This document shows positions 20,795 to 35,938 of a stretch of 54,374 nt of DNA, piece after piece. Numbering within the stretch: position 1 is the first letter of the stretch; each line of letters opens with the position of its first letter. The notes under the pieces are model-generated. The model searched no databases and was not told the DNA's origin. It saw only the letters and a list, made by a program, of their open reading frames with translations. Both the position numbers and the translations under genes were made by a program. Source of the DNA: Amycolatopsis thermalba (GTDB lineage: Bacteria > Actinomycetota > Actinomycetes > Mycobacteriales > Pseudonocardiaceae); assembly GCF_003385215.1 (NCBI RefSeq), contig NZ_PQHW01000042.1, forward strand, positions 1-54,374. The letters run 5' to 3'.

Positions 20795-22318
<1,524 letters not shown>

Positions 22319-26769: not shown

Positions 26770-29202
26770 GTGAAAAACACAGATGACAAGTCAGGCGAAG
26801 GCCACCACAAGTCGATTCGCAAACGCCTGACCGGAACCGTCCTGATCCCCAGTATCGCGCTGCTGGTGATGTGGATCGCGGGTTCCGGCTACTTCCTGGT
26901 GGACGCGATCTACGTGCGCACGGTGGCCTCCTCCGTGCAGGACGTGTCGATCCCCGCCGTCACCGCGCTCGGCGCCGTCCAGCAGGAACGCCAGCTGTCC
27001 CTGGTCTACCTGGAACGCCCCCAGGTCGGCCTGCGCGACCTGCAGGCGCAGCAGCAGTCCATCGACAAGTCGCTGACCAGCCTCCGGTCCGCGCTGGCCG
27101 AGGTGAAGAGCCTCGTGCCGGACGAGATCGGGCAGCGGATGAACCAGATGGAGTCCAGCCTCGACCAGCTCCCGGTCATCCGCGCGGAGATCAACCTGCG
27201 CACGATCTCCAAGGAGCAGGTCAACGACTTCTACAACCGCCTGCTGGACACCGCGACCGACCTGTTCGACTCGCAGGCCCGCCTGGTGCCCGACGCCGAG
27301 TCGACCCAGGGCGGTATGACGTCGGTGGACATCTTCCGCGCCTCCGACCAGATGTCGCGCGCCGCGTCGCTGGCCTCCAGCGCGTTCGCCGCCGGGCAGT
27401 TCGCCCCCGCCGACCACCTGCAGTTCGCCCAGCTCGTCGGCAGCTACCGCGCGCAGCTGACGAAGATCGCGAGCTACATGGCCCCCGAGGCCGGCCAGCG
27501 CTACCGCGAGCTGACCTCGAGCGACCAGTGGCAGCGCCTCACCGCCGCCGAGAACTCGATCATCACGCACGGACCGGGCCCGTTCCGCGAGAACGTCGGC
27601 GGCCTGACCCTGCGGGAGAACGACTGGCGCGACCTCACCACGCAGGTGTCGGGCCAGCTGATCGCCCTGACCGTCGAGCAGTCGGAGCTGGCCTCCGGCG
27701 CCGCGCTCGACAAGGGCAACGTCAACCTGTGGACCGTGATCATCGGCAGCATCGCCGCCCTGCTCGCGGCGGTCGCGTCGATCTGGGTCGCCATCCGGGT
27801 GTCCCGCACCCTGGTCGACCGGACCCTGATGACGCGCCTCGAGCGCCTGCGCAACGACTCGCTGGAGCTGGCCCGCACCCGCCTGCCGAGCATCGTGAAC
27901 CGGCTCAAGGAGGGCGAGCCGGTCGACGTCAGCGCCGAGCTGCCCCGGCTGGACCACGGCAAGGACGAGATCGGGCAGGTGGCCGAGGCGTTCAACATCG
28001 CCCAGCTGACCGCCGTCCAGGCCGCGGCCAGCGAGGCCAAGGCCCGCAGCGGTGTCAACAACGTGTTCCTCGGCATCGCCCACCGCAACCAGGGCCTGGT
28101 GCACCGCCAGCTGCAGATCCTGGACCGGATGGAAAGCCGCGAGGAGAACCCGGAGCAGCTCAAGGGCCTGTTCCAGCTCGACCACCTGGCCACCCGCGCC
28201 CGGCGCACCACCGAGAACCTGATCATCCTCGGCGGCAAGCAGCCGGGCCGCCGCTGGCGCAAGCCGGTGTGGCTGATGGACGTGCTGCGCGCCGCGGTGT
28301 CGGAGACCGAGCACTACTCGCGGGTCGAGGTGGAGAACGTCCCGCAGGTCGCGATCATCGGCTCCGCGGTCGCCGACACCATCCACCTGGTCGCCGAGCT
28401 GGTCGACAACGCCACCACGTTCTCCCCGCCCGGATCGCAGGTCCACATGACCTCCACCCTGGTCGCGCGCGGCGTCGTGGTGGACGTGGCCGACCAGGGC
28501 CTGGGCATGAAGGACGACGTCCGGGAATGGGCCAACCGGATGATGTCGGAGCCGCCCGAGTTCGACGCAATGGCCCTGAAAGCCGACTCCAGCCTGGGCC
28601 TCTTCGTGGTCGCCCGGCTGGCGGCCCGGCTCGGCCTCAAGGTCATGTTCGATTCCTCGCGCTACGGTGGCACCCGCGCCACGATCCTGATCCCGTCGGC
28701 CCTGCTCGCCAACACCGACCAGGTCGCCGAGAACGCCGATCCGGAGTTCCGCGGCGCCCCGGCGACCGCCGGGCCCGACTCGTACGAGCAGGAGGAGACC
28801 GGCGTGCCGGCCGGAGCGAACGGTATGGGACGACACGAGAACAACGGCGCCCCCGAGCCCGCTCGGCGGGTCCCGGTGGAGCTCCCCGCGGGACGGCACG
28901 CCGAGCCGGAACCGGAACGGGCGAGCGAGACCACCGGTGTGCGGACGATCTCGGTGTTCGAGCCGGACCCCGCACCGTCGCCGACGCCCTCGCCGCGCCC
29001 CAAGCGGTCCCGGGCCCCGCTGCCGCAGCGCGAACCGCAGCAGAACCTCGTCGCCCAGCTCCGTGACGACCCGGACGCGGACGCCACCGATTACCACGAG
29101 TTCTCCGGTCGGACCCGCAACACGCTCTCGGCGTTCCACAAGGGGACCCGCCGCGGGCGCGACGCAGACGCACCGGAAGACCCCCGGGCCACCATTGACT
29201 GA
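26770..29202 (+). CDS. cvnA: Conservon histidine-kinase-like protein with nitrate/nitrite-sensor type extracellular domain
   Basis: 810 residues, GTG start. Membrane helix 1 about 26-48 (LIPSIALLVMWIAGSGYFLV), extracellular NIT-like helical domain about 50-305, helix 2 about 318-342 (VIIGSIAALLAAVASIWVAI), then a HAMP-like linker. The dimerisation region NVFLGIAHRNQGLVHRQLQI has H-R-N rather than the kinase H-E, as in CvnA proteins. The ATPase domain keeps AELVDNATTFSPPGS (N box), DQGLGM (G1) and SSLGLFVVARLAARLGL (G2). The last 150 residues are Pro/Glu/Arg-rich and disordered. First gene of cvnABCD; such membrane systems act like eukaryotic G-protein-coupled sensing in development and antibiotic control. 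Confidence 0.92.
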   Translation: MKNTDDKSGEGHHKSIRKRLTGTVLIPSIALLVMWIAGSGYFLVDAIYVRTVASSVQDVSIPAVTALGAVQQERQLSLVYLERPQVGLRDLQAQQQSIDKSLTSLRSALAEVKSLVPDEIGQRMNQMESSLDQLPVIRAEINLRTISKEQVNDFYNRLLDTATDLFDSQARLVPDAESTQGGMTSVDIFRASDQMSRAASLASSAFAAGQFAPADHLQFAQLVGSYRAQLTKIASYMAPEAGQRYRELTSSDQWQRLTAAENSIITHGPGPFRENVGGLTLRENDWRDLTTQVSGQLIALTVEQSELASGAALDKGNVNLWTVIIGSIAALLAAVASIWVAIRVSRTLVDRTLMTRLERLRNDSLELARTRLPSIVNRLKEGEPVDVSAELPRLDHGKDEIGQVAEAFNIAQLTAVQAAASEAKARSGVNNVFLGIAHRNQGLVHRQLQILDRMESREENPEQLKGLFQLDHLATRARRTTENLIILGGKQPGRRWRKPVWLMDVLRAAVSETEHYSRVEVENVPQVAIIGSAVADTIHLVAELVDNATTFSPPGSQVHMTSTLVARGVVVDVADQGLGMKDDVREWANRMMSEPPEFDAMALKADSSLGLFVVARLAARLGLKVMFDSSRYGGTRATILIPSALLANTDQVAENADPEFRGAPATAGPDSYEQEETGVPAGANGMGRHENNGAPEPARRVPVELPAGRHAEPEPERASETTGVRTISVFEPDPAPSPTPSPRPKRSRAPLPQREPQQNLVAQLRDDPDADATDYHEFSGRTRNTLSAFHKGTRRGRDADAPEDPRATID

Positions 29203-29223
29203 GAGGGAAGTCGAACCTCATCG

Positions 29224-29649
29224 ATGAACGAGAACGAGAACTCCAAGGTCGACCTGAACTGGCTGCTCGACGACATGGTCGACCGCGTCGTCGGGGCGCA
29301 GCACGCCGTGGTCCTCTCGGCCGACGGGCTGCTCATGGGCAAGTCCGCGAACCTGTCCAAGGACGACTCCGACCAGCTGTCGGCGATCGCGTCCAGCCTG
29401 CAGAGCCTCGCCAAGGGCGCCAGCAAGCACTTCCAGCGCGGCCCGGTGCTGCAGACCCTCATCGAGATGGCCGAGGGCTACCTGTTCGTGTGCGCGGCCG
29501 GTCAGGGCGCGTGCCTGGCGATCCTCGCCGAGGAGACGGTCGACGTCGAGATGATCGCCTACGAGATGAGCCGCCTCGTCAAGCGCGTCGGTGACTACAT
29601 GACGTCGGCTCCCCGGGATGCCGCGAGGTTCGTAGCGGAGCACAACTGA
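29224..29649 (+). CDS. cvnB: Conservon roadblock/LC7 protein
   Basis: 141 residues, one roadblock/LC7 domain: LNWLLDDMVDRVVGAQHAVV, LSADGLLMGKSANLS, then GYLFVCAAGQGACLAILA and DVEMIAYEMSRLVKRVGDYM. These small alpha/beta dimers act as regulators or scaffolds for the CvnD GTPase, as MglB does for MglA. It starts 21 bp after cvnA and its stop overlaps the cvnC ATG (shared A at 29649), indicating coupled translation. Confidence 0.93.
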   Translation: MNENENSKVDLNWLLDDMVDRVVGAQHAVVLSADGLLMGKSANLSKDDSDQLSAIASSLQSLAKGASKHFQRGPVLQTLIEMAEGYLFVCAAGQGACLAILAEETVDVEMIAYEMSRLVKRVGDYMTSAPRDAARFVAEHN

Positions 29650-30014
29650 TGGCGGACGATCAGTGGTACGACGAAGCGGCCGGGCCGCTGATCCGGCCGT
29701 ACGCCATCACCCGGGGCCGGATCCCGTCCGTCGACATCAAGCTCGACGTGGCGACTCAGGTGATGGCCATCCGGGGCAACCACGACCCGATCGGGTTGAC
29801 CCCGGAACACCTGACGATCCTCGAGTTGTGCCAGCGGCCGTTGTCCGTCGCTGAAATTGCCGTGTACGTCAAGGTCCCCCTCGCCGTGGTCAAGGTGTTG
29901 TGCAGCGATCTGATCGAACGGGGCGCCGTGATCGTCCGTTCGCCGTCGCAGCCGGCCAAGGCCCCCGATCGCGAACTACTCCAGGCGGTGCTCGATGGCC
30001 TCAACAAGCTCTGA
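29649..30014 (+). CDS. cvnC: Conservon DUF742 protein
   Basis: 121 residues. DUF742 features: LIRPYAITRGRIPS near the N-terminus, HLTILELCQRPLSVAEIAVY, VKVPLAVVKVLCSDLIERGA and V-rich end with LLQAVLDGLNKL. The middle looks like a winged helix-turn-helix without proven DNA binding. Its last 20 bp overlap cvnD in another frame. In conservons it bridges the roadblock protein and the GTPase. Confidence 0.93.
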   Translation: MADDQWYDEAAGPLIRPYAITRGRIPSVDIKLDVATQVMAIRGNHDPIGLTPEHLTILELCQRPLSVAEIAVYVKVPLAVVKVLCSDLIERGAVIVRSPSQPAKAPDRELLQAVLDGLNKL

Positions 30015-30594
30015 AGAAGGCGGCGTCATCCCGACGCCGGTCAAGATCGTCATCGCGGGCGGTTTCGGCGCCGGCAAGACCACCATGGTCGCGTCGGTGA
30101 GCGAGATCGTCCCGCTGTCCACCGAGGAGGTGATGACGGAGGCCAGCACGGGCGTCGACGACCTGACCGGTGTCGAACGCAAGACCACGACCACGGTCGC
30201 GCTGGACTTCGGCCGCATCACCATCTCCCCGCAGACGGTGCTGTACCTGTTCGGCACGCCCGGGCAGGACCGGTTCTGGTTCATGTGGGACGAGCTCGCG
30301 CTGGGCGCCATCGGCACCGTGGTGCTGGTCGACACGCGTCGGCTGGACTCCAGCTTCGCGGCGATCGACTTCTTCGAACGGCGCAAGATCCCGTTCATCG
30401 TCGCGGTCAACTGCTTCGAGGACGCGGACGACTACGAAGAGGACGAGATCCGCAAGGCGCTCGCCATCGCCCCCGGCGTGCCGGTGATGTTCTTCGACGC
30501 GCGTTCACGGGAGTCGAGCAAGCTGGCGCTGATCCGGCTGGTGCGGTACGCGATGAGCCGGCTGCCCGCGGAGTCGGAGCTGGCGCGGACCTGA
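29995..30594 (+). CDS. cvnD: Conservon small GTPase-like ATP/GTP-binding protein
   Basis: 199 residues. P-loop GGFGAGKTT (about 22-30), switch-like STGVDDLTGVERKTTTTVAL, DxxG equivalent LFGTPGQDRFWFMWDE, and base-specificity region FIVAVNCFEDAD, where NKxD of true GTPases is NCFED. These are the features of CvnD/MglA-like proteins. The start ATG 29995 lies inside cvnC. A strong terminator follows 23 bp after the stop, so the operon ends here. Confidence 0.93.
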   Translation: MASTSSEEGGVIPTPVKIVIAGGFGAGKTTMVASVSEIVPLSTEEVMTEASTGVDDLTGVERKTTTTVALDFGRITISPQTVLYLFGTPGQDRFWFMWDELALGAIGTVVLVDTRRLDSSFAAIDFFERRKIPFIVAVNCFEDADDYEEDEIRKALAIAPGVPVMFFDARSRESSKLALIRLVRYAMSRLPAESELART

Positions 30595-30617
30595 GGTTCT
30601 CCAGCCCGGGACTGGGA

Positions 30618-30651
30618 AAGGCCACCCCGTTCTTCGTGACGGGGTGGCCTT
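30618..30651 (+). terminator. Bidirectional hairpin between cvnD and the tryptophanase gene
   Basis: Perfect 13-bp stem AAGGCCACCCCGT / ACGGGGTGGCCTT with loop TCTTCGTG. It ends in TT on one strand and, read from the other side, also ends ...CCTT, so it can serve both cvnD (stop 30594) and the convergent tryptophanase (stop 30665). Confidence 0.88.
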
Positions 30652-30664
30652 CGCGCATGGTGTG

Positions 30665-32047
30665 TCAGACGTACCGGGGCACCTGTCGTAGCTTCAGGTT
30701 GAAGTGCCGCAGCAGCTGCGGCGCGTGGGTGACCCGGTACTCCGGTACCCGTTCGGGGTTCTTCGCGATCGTCGCCAGCACGTCGGCCACGTACTCCAGG
30801 TGCGCGAGCGTGTAGGTCCGCCGCGGGATGGCCAGGCGGACCAGCTCGAACGGCGCCGGGGCGATCAGGTTGTGCTCGTCGTCGAAAGTGCCCAGGTACA
30901 GCGAACCCAGCTCGGCGCAGCGGATGCCGCCCGCCAGGTACAGCTCGCACGCCAGCGCGTGCCCGGGGAAACCGTGCGGGGGCATGTGCTGCAGCAACCG
31001 CCCGGCGTTGAGGTACAGGCCGTGCACCCCGGCCGGCTGCACGATGTCCACCCCGGCCTCGTTGATCAGCCGGGCGAAGTGCGCGGTCTCCTCGGCGCGG
31101 TTGCGCAGGTAGTTCGGGTCCACGACCTCCCGCAGGCCCTGCGCGACCCGCTCCAGATCGTGCCCGCCCAGGCCACCGTACGTCCGGAAACCCTCGGTCG
31201 CGATGAGGATCGCCTCGCACTGCTTGGCCAGCTCCGCGTCCCGCACGCCGATCGCCGCGCCCATCGGGGCGATCGCGTCCTTCTTCAGGCTGGCGACGAA
31301 ACCGTCGGCGAGGGCGAACGTCTCCTGCGCGACCTCCTTCGGGGTCTTGCCCGCGTAACCCTCCTCGCGCTGGGTGATCAGCCACGAGTTCTCCGCGAAC
31401 CGCGCCGCGTCCAGGAAGAACGGCACCCCGAACCGGTCGCACAGCGCGCGCACGGCCTTCAGGTTCGCCATCGACACCGGCTGCCCGCCGCCACCGTTGT
31501 TGGTGATCGTGATGAGCACCTGGCCCACGCGGGAACCGTCCGGCCCGGACAGGGTTTCCTCGAGCGCGCCGAGGTCGATGTTGCCCTTGAACGGATCCCG
31601 GCTGTCCAGGTCCGCCGCCTCCGGGCACGGCAGGTCCCGCGCCTGCGCCCCGGCCAGCTCCACGTTCGCGCGCGTGGTGTCGAAGTGCGTGTTGGACAGC
31701 GAGATCTGCCCCGGCTTCAACGCGGTGGAGAACAGGATCCGCTCCGCCGCCCGGCCCTGGTGGACCGGGAACAGGTGCGGGAACGAGGTCAGGTCCGCCA
31801 GCGCGGACCGGAACCGGAACCACGAGTCCGAACCGGCGTAGGACCGGTCGGCCGCCGCAGCACCGGCCTCCTGCGCGGCCGACACCGCGCCGGTGCCGGA
31901 GTCGGTCAGCAGGTCGATCGTGACCATGTTCGCCGGCAGGTCGAACATGTTGTAACCGGCGCGGGAAAGCGCCTCCTCCCGCTCCTGCCGGGTCGTGATC
32001 GGGATCTCCTTGACAACCTGGACCCGGTACGGCGGGAACGACTTCAT
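30665..32047 (-). CDS. tnaA: Tryptophanase (tryptophan indole-lyase) family PLP enzyme
   Basis: 460 residues from ATG 32047, preceded by GGGAGGAAGAAG; an upstream GTG would overlap that site. Beta-elimination of tryptophan to indole, pyruvate and ammonia is expected, though prenylated tryptophan may be the real substrate. PLP Lys is Lys256 in SLKKDAIAPMG; VTIDLLTDSGTGAVS, PVHQGRAAERIL and DAARFAENSWLI match tryptophanase more than tyrosine phenol-lyase. FRTYGGLGGHDLER and RLAIPRRTYTLAHLEYVADV are also conserved. Differences from E. coli include SDSWFRF for the SxSY region and TITNNGGGGQPVS. Starts 20 bp after the indole prenyltransferase stop: one operon. Confidence 0.9.
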   Translation of the reverse strand: MKSFPPYRVQVVKEIPITTRQEREEALSRAGYNMFDLPANMVTIDLLTDSGTGAVSAAQEAGAAAADRSYAGSDSWFRFRSALADLTSFPHLFPVHQGRAAERILFSTALKPGQISLSNTHFDTTRANVELAGAQARDLPCPEAADLDSRDPFKGNIDLGALEETLSGPDGSRVGQVLITITNNGGGGQPVSMANLKAVRALCDRFGVPFFLDAARFAENSWLITQREEGYAGKTPKEVAQETFALADGFVASLKKDAIAPMGAAIGVRDAELAKQCEAILIATEGFRTYGGLGGHDLERVAQGLREVVDPNYLRNRAEETAHFARLINEAGVDIVQPAGVHGLYLNAGRLLQHMPPHGFPGHALACELYLAGGIRCAELGSLYLGTFDDEHNLIAPAPFELVRLAIPRRTYTLAHLEYVADVLATIAKNPERVPEYRVTHAPQLLRHFNLKLRQVPRYV

Positions 32048-32067
32048 GCTGACTTCTTCCTCCCGGT

Positions 32068-33171
32068 TCACAACGAAGCCGCGGCGCCGACCCGCGTGCG
32101 GGGTGCGGCCACGGCGTAGGCCTCCGACGAAAGATATACCGTCGTTCCGGTGCCGAACCGGCCGAGACGCAGGGAGACGTGCGCGATCAGGCCCACCCCC
32201 GCCGCCATCGGGCGGTCGGTGACCGCGGCGATCGCCCGGTCCAGCTCCGCGGCGGGCAGCCCGGCCCGCGCGAAGTGGGCCAGCACCCGCTCCCGCGCGG
32301 CCGCGTCGTCCGGGACGTAGTCGCGGATCGGGAGGTAGAGGCTGTAGTTGCCGGGACGGCCCGCATCGGCCTCCACGAAGGAGTAGCTGGAGATCAGCGG
32401 CCGCCCGGCGTACGGCCCGGTGCCGCCGCCCGCGGCGGTCAGGAACTCCCGCACCAGCAACGGGTTCACGCCCGCGACGGCCCCGGCCGCCCGCTCCACC
32501 GTGCCCGATTCCGCCGAATCGTGCGAAACGTACAGCTTGACCCGGGACAGCGGGCCGTCGTCGAGGTCGAGCGCGAAGAACGAGAACCGATCGGCGGCAC
32601 CACGCAACAGCGCGTGCTCGGTGACGGTTTCGTAGGCGTCGCTCAACCCCAGGCGCCGCAGTCCTTCCGCGACGAGCCCGGGGGCGGCGTGCTCGCCGCG
32701 CACCTGCGGGTTGAAGTAGACCTTGAGCGCCGGGGCGCGGCCGGGGCGCAGGATCACCGAGAACCAGAGGGCGAACTTCCCCTGCGGCCGTTCGGTGAGG
32801 AACAGGTCCTCGACCGCCTGGAACCGGTCGAGCCGGAGATCGAACCGCTGCGCCATGTGGGTGAGAAAGCGCTTCGCGGCATGAATGTTCGCCGCGTGGC
32901 CCGGGTTTTGCGGGATCGTTTCACCGAGGATCCGCACGGCACGGTCGCCGCTCTCGTCGAACGCGACCGAAAACTCCACGGGGGTCGCGTCGTCCGCGAC
33001 GTCGGAAGGCCACAGCGGGGGCTCGGTCAGCGGGCGCGCGCCCGCGGCCCCGAGGAGTTCCCGCAGGACGTCGACGGGATCACCGTCGTCGGCCGGAAAG
33101 CCTGCCACCCTGCAGAGTTCTCCGAGCTGTCTACTGGCATGGTCGAATAGGGTCACAGGGGCGACGTTCAC
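32068..33171 (-). CDS. Indole/tryptophan prenyltransferase (DMATS type, ABBA fold)
   Basis: 367 residues if GTG 33171 is the start (GGAG five bases upstream); bacterial DMATS enzymes have about this size. They attach dimethylallyl groups to the indole ring of L-tryptophan, independent of metal. DATPVEFSVAFDESGD near 61 carries Glu66, the likely base contacting indole N-H. Diphosphate-shield motifs alternate as expected: KVYFNPQVRGEHAAP, SRVKLYVSHDSAES and NYSLYLPIRDYVPDD. GLIAHVSLRLGRFGTGTTVY forms the last strands. The regiochemistry cannot be told. Directly followed by tryptophanase, so prenyl-tryptophan is probably cleaved further. Confidence 0.88.
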   Translation of the reverse strand: MNVAPVTLFDHASRQLGELCRVAGFPADDGDPVDVLRELLGAAGARPLTEPPLWPSDVADDATPVEFSVAFDESGDRAVRILGETIPQNPGHAANIHAAKRFLTHMAQRFDLRLDRFQAVEDLFLTERPQGKFALWFSVILRPGRAPALKVYFNPQVRGEHAAPGLVAEGLRRLGLSDAYETVTEHALLRGAADRFSFFALDLDDGPLSRVKLYVSHDSAESGTVERAAGAVAGVNPLLVREFLTAAGGGTGPYAGRPLISSYSFVEADAGRPGNYSLYLPIRDYVPDDAAARERVLAHFARAGLPAAELDRAIAAVTDRPMAAGVGLIAHVSLRLGRFGTGTTVYLSSEAYAVAAPRTRVGAAASL

Positions 33172-33589: not shown

Positions 33590-35065
33590 TCACCCGAACC
33601 GGCGGCGGACCTCGGCCTTGCGGATCTTGCCGGAACCGGTCGTGGGCAGCGCGTCGGTGAACTCGACCGATTTGGGCACTTTGTACCCGGCCAGGCGGGT
33701 GCGCAGCCAGGCCAGCAGCTCGTCCGCTTCGATCCTGCTCCCGGGCGCGGGCACGACGACCGCCTTGCCCACCTCGCCCCAGCGCGGGTCCGGCACCCCG
33801 ATCACCGCGCACGCCTCCACCCCGGGGAAGCCGTACAGCTCGTTCTCCACCTCGGCCGGGTAGATGTTCTCCCCGCCCGAGATGATCATGTCCTTGAGCC
33901 GGTCGACCACGTGGAAGTAGCCGTCATCGTCCACTGTGGCCACGTCGCCGGAGTGGAACCACCCGTCGCGGAGCACCTCCGCCGTCGCCTCCGGCCGGCC
34001 CCAGTAGCCCTTCATCACGTTCGGCCCGCTGACCACGATCTCGCCCTTCTCCCCCGGCGGCACCGGCTCCCCGGACGGGCCGGCCAGCCGCACGTCGGTG
34101 AAGAACGACGGCACCCCGGCGGAGCCGATCTTCTCCGCGGCGTGCTCGCGATCCAGGACCAGTGCGCCCGGGGCGGCCTCGGTCATCCCGTAGCCCTGCA
34201 CGAAGGCCAGCCCGCGGTCGAGGTACCGGCGGATCAGATCGGACGGCACCGGCGCGCCGCCGCACAGCAGGGTCCGCACGCTGGACAGGTCGGTCGCGTC
34301 CCACCGCGGGTGCGCGGCCATCGCCTGGTACATCGTGGGCACGCCGAACATCAGCGTGACCCGGTCCTGTTCCACTGTGGACAGCACTGCGCCGGGGTCG
34401 AACGACGAGTGCAGGATGACCGTGCCGCCCTTGAGCAGGGCGGGCAGGCACACCATGCCCAGGGCGGCGGCGTGGAACAGGGGCGCGGCGACCAGGGCCC
34501 GCTCGTCGCTCGCGAGGTCGGTCTCCACCAGGACGTTGACGCTGTTCCAGGTGAGGTTGCCGTGGGTGAGCATCGCGGCCTTGGGCCGTCCCGTGCTGCC
34601 CGAGGTGTACATCAGCAGGCACACGTCGTCCAGGCCGACGGGCAGGTCGAGCGGCTCGTCACCGGTCGCGTCCAGCTCGCCGGCGGGCACGCGCAGCAGC
34701 CGGTCCCCCGCCAGCGCCGCGACCGTCTCCGCGTACTCCGGGGTGTGGATCAGGACCGCAGCCCCGGAGTCGGCCAGCGCGTGGTCCAGTTCCCCGGCGG
34801 TCAGCCGGAAGTTCAGCGGCACGAACACCGCGCCGGCCTGCCCGCACGCGAACAGGGTCTCCAGGTAGGCCGGGTGGTTGGGCCCGAGGTAGGCCACCCG
34901 GTCGCCCGGGCGGACCCCGGCGGCCCGCAGGCCCCGGGCCAGCCGCGCGACGCGGCGGGACAGCACACCGTAGGTCAGCTCCGTCCCGCCGTGCCGGACG
35001 GCGATCGCGTGCGGGCTCATCCTGGCGCGGCGCACCGGCCACGAGCCCAGACCCTGGTTGCGCAC
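33590..35065 (-). CDS. fcs: Feruloyl-CoA / hydroxycinnamoyl-CoA synthetase
   Basis: 491 residues from GTG 35065, which overlaps the ech stop (TAGTG). Adenylate-forming ligase activating ferulate, p-coumarate or caffeate to CoA thioesters. P-loop YTSGSTGRPKAAMLTHGN (about 155-172), A5 VQGYGMTEAAPG, A7 FHSGDVATVDDDGYFHVVDR, A8 KDMIISGGENIYPAEVENEL and catalytic Lys in TTGSGKIRKAEV. The length equals that I remember for Fcs of vanillin-forming Amycolatopsis. Linkage to a hydratase/lyase of the HCHL type makes the assignment firm. Confidence 0.9.
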   Translation of the reverse strand: MRNQGLGSWPVRRARMSPHAIAVRHGGTELTYGVLSRRVARLARGLRAAGVRPGDRVAYLGPNHPAYLETLFACGQAGAVFVPLNFRLTAGELDHALADSGAAVLIHTPEYAETVAALAGDRLLRVPAGELDATGDEPLDLPVGLDDVCLLMYTSGSTGRPKAAMLTHGNLTWNSVNVLVETDLASDERALVAAPLFHAAALGMVCLPALLKGGTVILHSSFDPGAVLSTVEQDRVTLMFGVPTMYQAMAAHPRWDATDLSSVRTLLCGGAPVPSDLIRRYLDRGLAFVQGYGMTEAAPGALVLDREHAAEKIGSAGVPSFFTDVRLAGPSGEPVPPGEKGEIVVSGPNVMKGYWGRPEATAEVLRDGWFHSGDVATVDDDGYFHVVDRLKDMIISGGENIYPAEVENELYGFPGVEACAVIGVPDPRWGEVGKAVVVPAPGSRIEADELLAWLRTRLAGYKVPKSVEFTDALPTTGSGKIRKAEVRRRFG

Positions 35066-35928
35066 TACTTCTCCGGGTCGAAGGCGCTCAGGCCGGGGCG
35101 GTAGGACTTCTGGTCGAGGAACTGGGTCAGCCCCTTGGCGCGGGCGCCGGCCTTGTCCGCGAACTGCGACTGGTCGAGCTTGGCGTAGAGGTAGTCCTCG
35201 GCCTGCTCCCACGGCATCTCCTGGGCGATCTTGTACCCGGTCTTGGCCGCGTGCAGGACCACCTGGTTCATCGACGCCAGCTTCAGCGCGACCTCGCGCG
35301 TGCGCTCCCGCAGCCGGCCGGCGGGCAGCGCCTCGTTGACCAGCCGCATCTGCGCGGCGCGACGGCCGTCGAACGGCTCGCCGGTCATGATGTGGTACAG
35401 CGCGTCGCGCTGCGGCACGGTCGCGGCGAGGGCCCGGGAGACCACGCCGCCCGGCGGGATGCCCCAGTTGACCTCGGACAGCCCGAACTGGGCGTCCTCG
35501 TCGGCGAAGGCCAGGTCACACGCCACCAGCGGGGTGAACGCGCCGCCGAAGCACCAGCCGTTGACCATCGCGATCGTCGGCTTGCTCCAGTTCGCCAGCC
35601 GCTTCCACTGCCACTCGGCGCTGGCCCGGCGGACCCGGATCTGCACCGCGGTGCTGCCGGTCGCGTCGACCTCGCGGAAGTACTCCTTGAGGTCCATGCC
35701 CGCGGAGAACGACTCGCCGGCGCCGGTGAGGACCAGGACCCGGCAGCGGTCGTCGCCCTCCAGGTGGTCCAGCACCCGGACCATCTCGTCGTTCAGCGCG
35801 GGGTTCATGGCGTTGCGCTTGTCCGGCCGGTTGAGCGTGACCCAGGCGATGCCCTCGTCGAACTCCACCAGAACCGTGTCGCCCCAGGGCTCCGTCCGGA
35901 CCCGCCCGTTGCCGACCGCTGTGCTCAT
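35065..35928 (-). CDS. ech: Hydroxycinnamoyl-CoA hydratase-lyase (feruloyl-CoA to vanillin)
   Basis: 287 residues from ATG 35928, preceded by AGAGGAG; an adjoining TTG is not needed. Crotonase-fold enzyme hydrating feruloyl-CoA and splitting it to vanillin and acetyl-CoA. Signature strings: GMDLKEYFREVDATG (Tyr83), VNGWCFGGAFTPLVACDLAF (Thr132 where Pseudomonas HCHL has Ser), GLSEVNWGIPPGG (Glu152, the catalytic Glu) and EQAEDYLYAKLDQSQF (substrate-binding Tyr). FLDQKSYRPGLSAFDPEK ends the protein as in HCHL. Cotranscribed with fcs. Confidence 0.93.
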   Translation of the reverse strand: MSTAVGNGRVRTEPWGDTVLVEFDEGIAWVTLNRPDKRNAMNPALNDEMVRVLDHLEGDDRCRVLVLTGAGESFSAGMDLKEYFREVDATGSTAVQIRVRRASAEWQWKRLANWSKPTIAMVNGWCFGGAFTPLVACDLAFADEDAQFGLSEVNWGIPPGGVVSRALAATVPQRDALYHIMTGEPFDGRRAAQMRLVNEALPAGRLRERTREVALKLASMNQVVLHAAKTGYKIAQEMPWEQAEDYLYAKLDQSQFADKAGARAKGLTQFLDQKSYRPGLSAFDPEK

Positions 35929-35938
35929 CAAGGCTCCT

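Follow-up and report, generated by a model that had tools for sequence, protein, structure and literature searches.

A probable Type A prenyl-indole cluster with an adjoining conservon in Amycolatopsis thermalba, and in-place exchange of biosynthetic genes beside related conservons

Introduction

What do a prenyltransferase and a tryptophanase encoded 20 bp apart make together, and does the conservon that converges on them have a part in it? The question is raised by a 54,374-nt stretch of the 7.24-Mb genome of Amycolatopsis thermalba (contig NZ_PQHW01000042.1), called the window throughout. An earlier note on this DNA had proposed that the two enzymes could make a prenylated tryptophan and then a free prenyl-indole; it drew no link between the pair and four plus-strand genes nearby. 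We consider it probable, at roughly 0.82, that the window carries a Type A prenyl-indole cluster, in which tryptophan would be prenylated at C6 and the product converted to prenyl-indole, with a conservon alongside. The position, strand and spacing given for the pair were confirmed from the sequence, and the core of the locus is as follows.

33171 (GTG) to a stop ending at 32068, minus strand: DMATS-type tryptophan prenyltransferase, 367 aa, kin of IptA / 6-DMATS, C6 regiochemistry predicted
32048..32067, minus strand: intergenic gap of 20 bp with a ribosome-binding-like GGGAGGAAG before the tryptophanase ATG, read from the sequence
32047 (ATG) to a stop ending at 30665, minus strand: tryptophanase-family pyridoxal phosphate (PLP) lyase, 460 aa, belonging to the prenyltransferase-linked clade
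29995..30594, plus strand: conservon small GTPase (CvnD-like; PF03029)
29649..30014, plus strand: conservon DUF742 protein (CvnC-like; PF05331)
29224..29649, plus strand: conservon roadblock protein (CvnB-like; PF03259 Robl_LC7, 85.7 bits, cut-off 23)
26770..29202, plus strand: conservon sensor-like histidine kinase (CvnA-like), 810 aa, with a NIT sensing domain (PF08376 NIT, 124.1 bits, and PF02518 HATPase_c, 37.1 bits, both over cut-off)

Judged by these protein families, the four-gene plus-strand cassette at 26770-30594, convergent with the pair, is a conservon.

Clusters of this make-up are known. According to the portions of Ozaki et al. 2013 (PMC3617294) available to us, IptA-type prenyltransferase clusters of actinomycetes all come with a conservon and fall into Type A, with a tryptophanase, and Type B, with a flavin monooxygenase. 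The same portions credit a Type A cluster with 6-dimethylallylindole-3-carbaldehyde, regard 6-prenylindole as a probable intermediate, and suggest that the conservon may join in signalling with the prenylated indoles. By its predicted proteins, the window fits Type A on every feature tested, with an IptA homologue beside a tryptophanase and a four-gene conservon. The gene pair is a typical member of its kind, one that the published Type A pathway already accounts for; the two-step route proposed earlier has good support from protein family, synteny and published chemistry but is not new (PMC3617294).

Results

The predicted prenyltransferase is complete, as first described: its 367-aa frame matches PF11991 (Trp_DMAT) at 58.4 bits against a cut-off of 25 (Pfam), and the ten-strand PT barrel was found in it. 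By structure it matches PDB 6zrx/6zry, the 6-dimethylallyltryptophan synthase of Micromonospora olivasterospora, with 353 residues superposed at 1.5 A and 52% identity; this enzyme shares the fold and nests among the Type A rows of the prenyltransferase tree, although it comes from another actinomycete family and the window's own regiochemistry is a prediction. Because this closest solved structure is a tryptophan 6-prenylating enzyme, 6-dimethylallyl-tryptophan and then 6-dimethylallyl-indole are the predicted products. The nearest named relatives belong to Amycolatopsis deserti (92%) and A. tucumanensis (87%). Glu66 in the string TPVEFS and the K-x-Y-type strand residues, both pointed out earlier, are present and conserved: in our alignment, Glu66 is kept in 72 of 73 Type A-like rows (the other has a gap), 11/11 Type B rows and 7/7 Streptomyces rows, while K150, Y152, K212, Y214 and Y346 are invariant across all three groups. 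We take Glu66, K150/Y152, K212/Y214 and Y346 to be the catalytic and shield residues.

Three side observations concern the prenyltransferases. Two residues common to all 73 Type A-like rows are replaced in the Type B enzymes (L085-L088, L246-L252), Arg283 by Pro in 10/11 and by Ala in 1/11, and Glu350 by Gly, Ala or Ser in 11/11, a hint that these enzymes bind differently or use a different acceptor. A homologue of 29.5% identity, annotated as hypothetical, lies 1.2 kb from a dimethylaniline monooxygenase gene on a plasmid of the cyanobacterium Calothrix sp. NIES-4101 (L095). Two genomes of one genus each have two adjoining distant prenyltransferase-like matches, in long open frames of 543-689 aa (G086:C1:5442767-5445533 and G125:C7:127024-129787).

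The tryptophanase is likewise intact, its 460-aa frame matching PF01212 (Beta_elim_lyase) at 197.8 bits (cut-off 27; Pfam) and NF009709 at 589.7 bits (cut-off 285; NCBIfam). Lys256, named in the earlier note, aligns with the PLP lysine of Escherichia coli, Lys270, and is invariant in 56/56 prenyltransferase-linked tryptophanases. Identity to E. coli TnaA is 38%, and the equivalents of Lys270, Tyr74, Asp137 and His463 are kept; unlike TnaA, the window enzyme sits with a prenyltransferase. In a quick tree (n = 99), the 56 linked tryptophanases together with those of L143 and L144, which have no prenyltransferase, form one branch with a support of 100 in the Shimodaira-Hasegawa-like approximate likelihood ratio test, and 34 stand-alone and 7 distant tryptophanases fall outside it; the tree omits L084 and L162, whose genes are broken, and L106 and L135, which come from the genome of L147. 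The prenyltransferase-linked tryptophanases are a dedicated clade of their own. The window genome also has a stand-alone tryptophanase of 52% identity (L146, G000:C149:36179-37522).

The string SDSWFRF, which had been suggested to admit a bulkier substrate, is present at residues 73-79, but we rejected it as a specificity mark, its positions varying alike with and without a prenyltransferase neighbour: E. coli positions 78-80 are mostly R/D/E, S and F/W/Y in linked enzymes and mostly R/P, S and F/W/Y in unlinked ones. A better separator lies at window residues 377-385, around E. coli 394-401. Ala at 394 occurs in 43/56 linked but 0/34 stand-alone enzymes, Tyr at 400 in 55/56 and 0/34, and Leu at 401 in 56/56 and 0/34, although E. 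coli TnaA also has Leu401. TnaA has Val394 and SFLL (398-401) where the window enzyme has Ala and SLYL. Positions 394 and 396 of TnaA presumably line the indole pocket, corresponding in tyrosine phenol-lyase to Met379 and Arg381, the first of which is mutated (M379A) in PDB 7tcs according to its title. A smaller side chain at 394 would accommodate a larger substrate, and the preferred substrate of the window tryptophanase is predicted to be prenylated tryptophan. Val394 is retained in 12 linked rows, so Ala394 is not required; both L143 and L144 have Val394. Satou et al. 2014 reportedly tested a prenyltransferase and a tryptophanase together (Actinoplanes missouriensis).

The prenyltransferase would move dimethylallyl from dimethylallyl diphosphate onto tryptophan, most likely at C6, and the tryptophanase would then remove the side chain as ammonia and pyruvate, leaving free 6-dimethylallyl-indole, homologous chemistry having been proposed in print; the convergent conservon would most likely control or sense this output. 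Saccharomonospora, according to a source seen in excerpt, yields 6-dimethylallyltryptophan and 6-dimethylallyl-indole together, and the Saccharomonospora loci L168 and L169 carry the Type A cluster. The opposite order, in which the tryptophanase makes indole and the prenyltransferase then prenylates it, seems to us improbable. Tryptophanases do generally release indole, and L143 and L144 have a tryptophanase of the same clade with no prenyltransferase; against this, the structures 6zrx, 5inj and 7w8v of the prenyltransferase's close relatives contain bound tryptophan according to their titles, the prenylated tryptophan co-occurs with the prenyl-indole in Saccharomonospora, the window genome already has another tryptophanase, and the Type B flavin enzyme has a Km for prenylated tryptophan far below that for tryptophan, as given in part of PMC3617294.

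Known systems place the locus further. The Type A iptA cluster of Streptomyces sp. SN-593 shares with the window the IptA-family prenyltransferase, the tryptophanase and the four-gene conservon. The window differs in that its prenyltransferase is 41% identical to IptA (7w8u), its conservon is of a separate lineage and lies downstream and convergent instead of upstream and co-directional (as in the Streptomyces locus L092), and it has no P450 match. Type B SCO7467/SCO7468 of S. coelicolor shares the prenyl-tryptophan intermediate and the conservon neighbour, but it prenylates C5 and, in the accessible part of PMC3617294, uses a flavin monooxygenase to give an aldoxime and a nitrile where Type A has a tryptophanase. 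With Streptomyces queries, including the Type B monooxygenase, neither a flavin monooxygenase nor a P450 relative was matched in the window (E up to 1e-5). The adjacent flavin monooxygenase whose absence the earlier note remarked on is not a missing partner; its absence distinguishes Type A from Type B.

How widely the pair is conserved was assessed in a Pseudonocardiaceae sample of 150 genomes, the window's own included, of which 67 have a prenyltransferase match. We fetched 53 loci outside the window with at least 41% prenyltransferase identity (two G112 fragments excluded), and at first five of the lower-identity places (L085-L089). A tryptophanase match follows the prenyltransferase in 53/53, beyond chance, and a conservon is linked in 50/53, downstream and convergent in 42 and upstream and co-directional in 8; the linkage is near-obligate. 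The window genome has 5 conservon GTPase genes (E up to 1e-20), so that, by arithmetic, only about 1-2% of random genes would have one inside 10 kb. Within the window's genus, 13 of the 19 genomes examined, its own included, have the prenyltransferase. A scan of public genomes gave 43 named loci, overlapping the family sample, with a tryptophanase in 39 and a conservon in 39; in L185 (Jidongwangia harbinensis), the prenyltransferase adjoins a conservon with no tryptophanase, and L204-L206 have neither. Phylum-wide, the prenyltransferase is rarer than the tryptophanase (7/296 genomes, and 41/296 with tryptophanase-type matches), so most tryptophanases there stand alone. The pairing is not limited to the few streptomycetes of the earlier note but is found across the family sample and among the named loci. 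A second prenyltransferase-tryptophanase type, of 41-43% prenyltransferase identity, was seen in L083, L084 (its tryptophanase gene broken), G450:C1:1098501-1100947 and G454:C67:3140-5601.

Several points weigh against reading the window as a C6-specific Type A cluster with a conservon that takes part. The TIGR03429 match of the prenyltransferase (116.2 bits; NCBIfam) is under the cut-off of 163.85, and that of the tryptophanase to TIGR02617 (401.6 bits) is under 825.8, so that, by this model, the latter is in the tryptophanase family but is not the enteric equivalog. The excerpted source assigns no genes to the Saccharomonospora compounds. The regiochemistry rests on 52% identity, and IptA (C6) and SCO7467 (C5) prenylate different positions at 59% identity (PMC3617294, in part). 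An otherwise unchanged pathway with prenylation at C5 or C7 could draw on this shift within the family; with the nearest characterised structure being a C6 enzyme that nests among Type A rows, we think it unlikely. The conservon role is read from linkage only. Among the three family loci with no linked conservon, L033 runs off the end of its contig, and none lies in the 20 kb fetched for L083 and L084; a Streptomyces plasmid (L090) has the pair with no conservon in 17 kb; and L145, from the same phylum only, has a prenyltransferase with neither tryptophanase nor conservon.

The pairs with no conservon (L083, L084 and L090) bear on a further alternative, that the conservon is a bystander, its linkage reflecting the common descent of a single genomic island. 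A single clade of linked GTPases in Pseudonocardiaceae and Micromonosporaceae was not rejected (approximately unbiased [AU] test, p 0.554; thinned set of 24 + 4 + 1 linked rows and 22 unlinked from four genomes), so that a single joining in an ancestor could account for most linked cases. Adding the Streptomyces linked GTPases to that clade was rejected, however (p 0.003), as was adding L144 (p 0.016), these p values being somewhat flattering because an initial tree had guided the choice of groups. Conservons of other lineages in Streptomyces and L144 indicate that conservons were probably joined to prenyl-indole chemistry more than once. The linkage also persists through two gene orders and exchange of the biosynthetic genes, and conservon GTPases are scarce. 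On balance, we doubt the bystander explanation and favour a conservon that controls or senses the prenyl-indole. In L144:5081-10713 (G083:C16), a linked-clade tryptophanase lies directly behind the other-lineage conservon, with no prenyltransferase match in 20 kb.

To our knowledge, few conservon inputs or outputs have been established. The cvn8 conservon (PMC8510531, PMC13343842) has the same kinase-roadblock-DUF742-GTPase cassette and, in the parts of these reports available, adjoins a biosynthetic cluster whose expression it affects. It differs from the window in that the latter has no P450 match at the E value above, and the main texts of PMC8510531 and PMC13343842 do not contain prenyl, indole or tryptophan.

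The exchange of biosynthetic genes was seen in the genus of G088 and its kin (named kin Saccharothrix). All 25 genomes have a prenyltransferase match, and in all 25 the main prenyltransferase locus has a conservon on the same side. Fifteen carry a tryptophanase with a Type A prenyltransferase, nine a flavin monooxygenase with another prenyltransferase, 30-37% identical to that of the window, and L245 (G457) alone is a hybrid, in which a flavin monooxygenase takes the position of the tryptophanase behind a Type A prenyltransferase. We compared A/B pairs by blastn (L079, L073 and L072 with L085; L079 and L072 with L086; L065 and L075 with L088). In 7/7, homology runs through the conservon, is interrupted over the cassette, where matches of at least 150 bp are lacking, and picks up again on the far side (at +3539 in L079 and +3300 in L085, for example, with 90% identity), while in same-type controls (L079/L072, L065/L075 and L085/L086) the cassette aligns at 76-83%. 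Such homologous flanks imply that the biosynthetic cassette was exchanged in place.

In the hybrid (L245:8165-10620), both genes are open (440 and 366 codons) and 32 bp apart in operon order, with the usual conservon adjoining. Compared with five Type A prenyltransferases of the genus, its own shows 66-73% identity, and it shows 34% with the enzyme of L246, which is the sister strain on both the conservon DNA and rpoB trees; between its monooxygenase and those of the genus's nine Type B loci, identity is 59-73%. A second genus, with three genomes, has two of A and one of B. Over the two genera, hybrid excluded, the fewest A/B changes are three on either tree, and well-supported branches alone force at least two. 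None of the 17 Type A genomes of both genera has a monooxygenase of the cassette kind (at least 56% identity to that of L085, E up to 1e-30); remoter ones (38-48%) occur in four of them. None of the 10 Type B genomes has a tryptophanase of at least 58% identity, one having a 51% copy elsewhere. The hybrid strain has a 40% tryptophanase copy.

Two further features were mapped.

33590..35931, minus strand: acyl-CoA ligase and p-hydroxycinnamoyl-CoA hydratase/lyase (ferulate-type pair; NF006588, 442.4 bits, cut-off 276), outside the core
30617..30652, minus strand: GC-rich hairpin, 14 bp, a possible shared terminator between the convergent tryptophanase and conservon GTPase genes

Folding gives the stretch with the hairpin -36 kcal/mol and a z of -3.41 relative to shuffled sequence, but the hairpin was not among the calls of the terminator scan. 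A simple promoter scan gave nothing, and the phage records gave no match. We rejected the ferulate-type genes as part of the pathway core, since by locus counts they are a genus-level neighbour: they adjoin the prenyltransferase in the window and in 4/5 other loci of the genus, in 0/48 other family loci, and in 2/43 named loci, both Amycolatopsis. Hydratase/lyases of the NF006588 family turn aryl-acryloyl-CoA into aldehydes, and a 3-carbaldehyde is associated with a Type A cluster (PMC3617294, in part), so that the two genes might yield an indole-3-carbaldehyde, starting from an indole-acryloyl-CoA. This appears very improbable to us, given their confinement to Amycolatopsis among these loci, their distance of 418 bp upstream of the prenyltransferase, and the lack of an acrylate source, none having turned up, although none was searched for. 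A second ligase relative (39%) lies at 20831-22309 on the plus strand.

Discussion

In the open-access literature, among the matches listed, we did not find an in-place exchange beside a constant conservon described, and only Ozaki et al. treat a conservon together with a prenyltransferase; the exchange may be new. Together with the separate conservon lineage of Streptomyces, it makes the signalling suggestion of Ozaki et al. stronger and testable, although linkage is still not function. We tentatively propose, as a possibility that we rate below even odds, that the conservon is a fixed signalling slot with an exchangeable payload, perceiving or governing prenylated indoles as a class, with the dedicated tryptophanase and the monooxygenase serving as alternative finishing enzymes for a shared prenyl-tryptophan intermediate.

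The pair itself adds one more example of a published route to an antifungal prenyl-indole, and we consider the exchange site the weightier finding. It offers a natural experiment, in which sister strains have the same signalling genes and different predicted products. If the fixed-slot proposal is true, the conservon would resemble a signal system with swappable signal variants.

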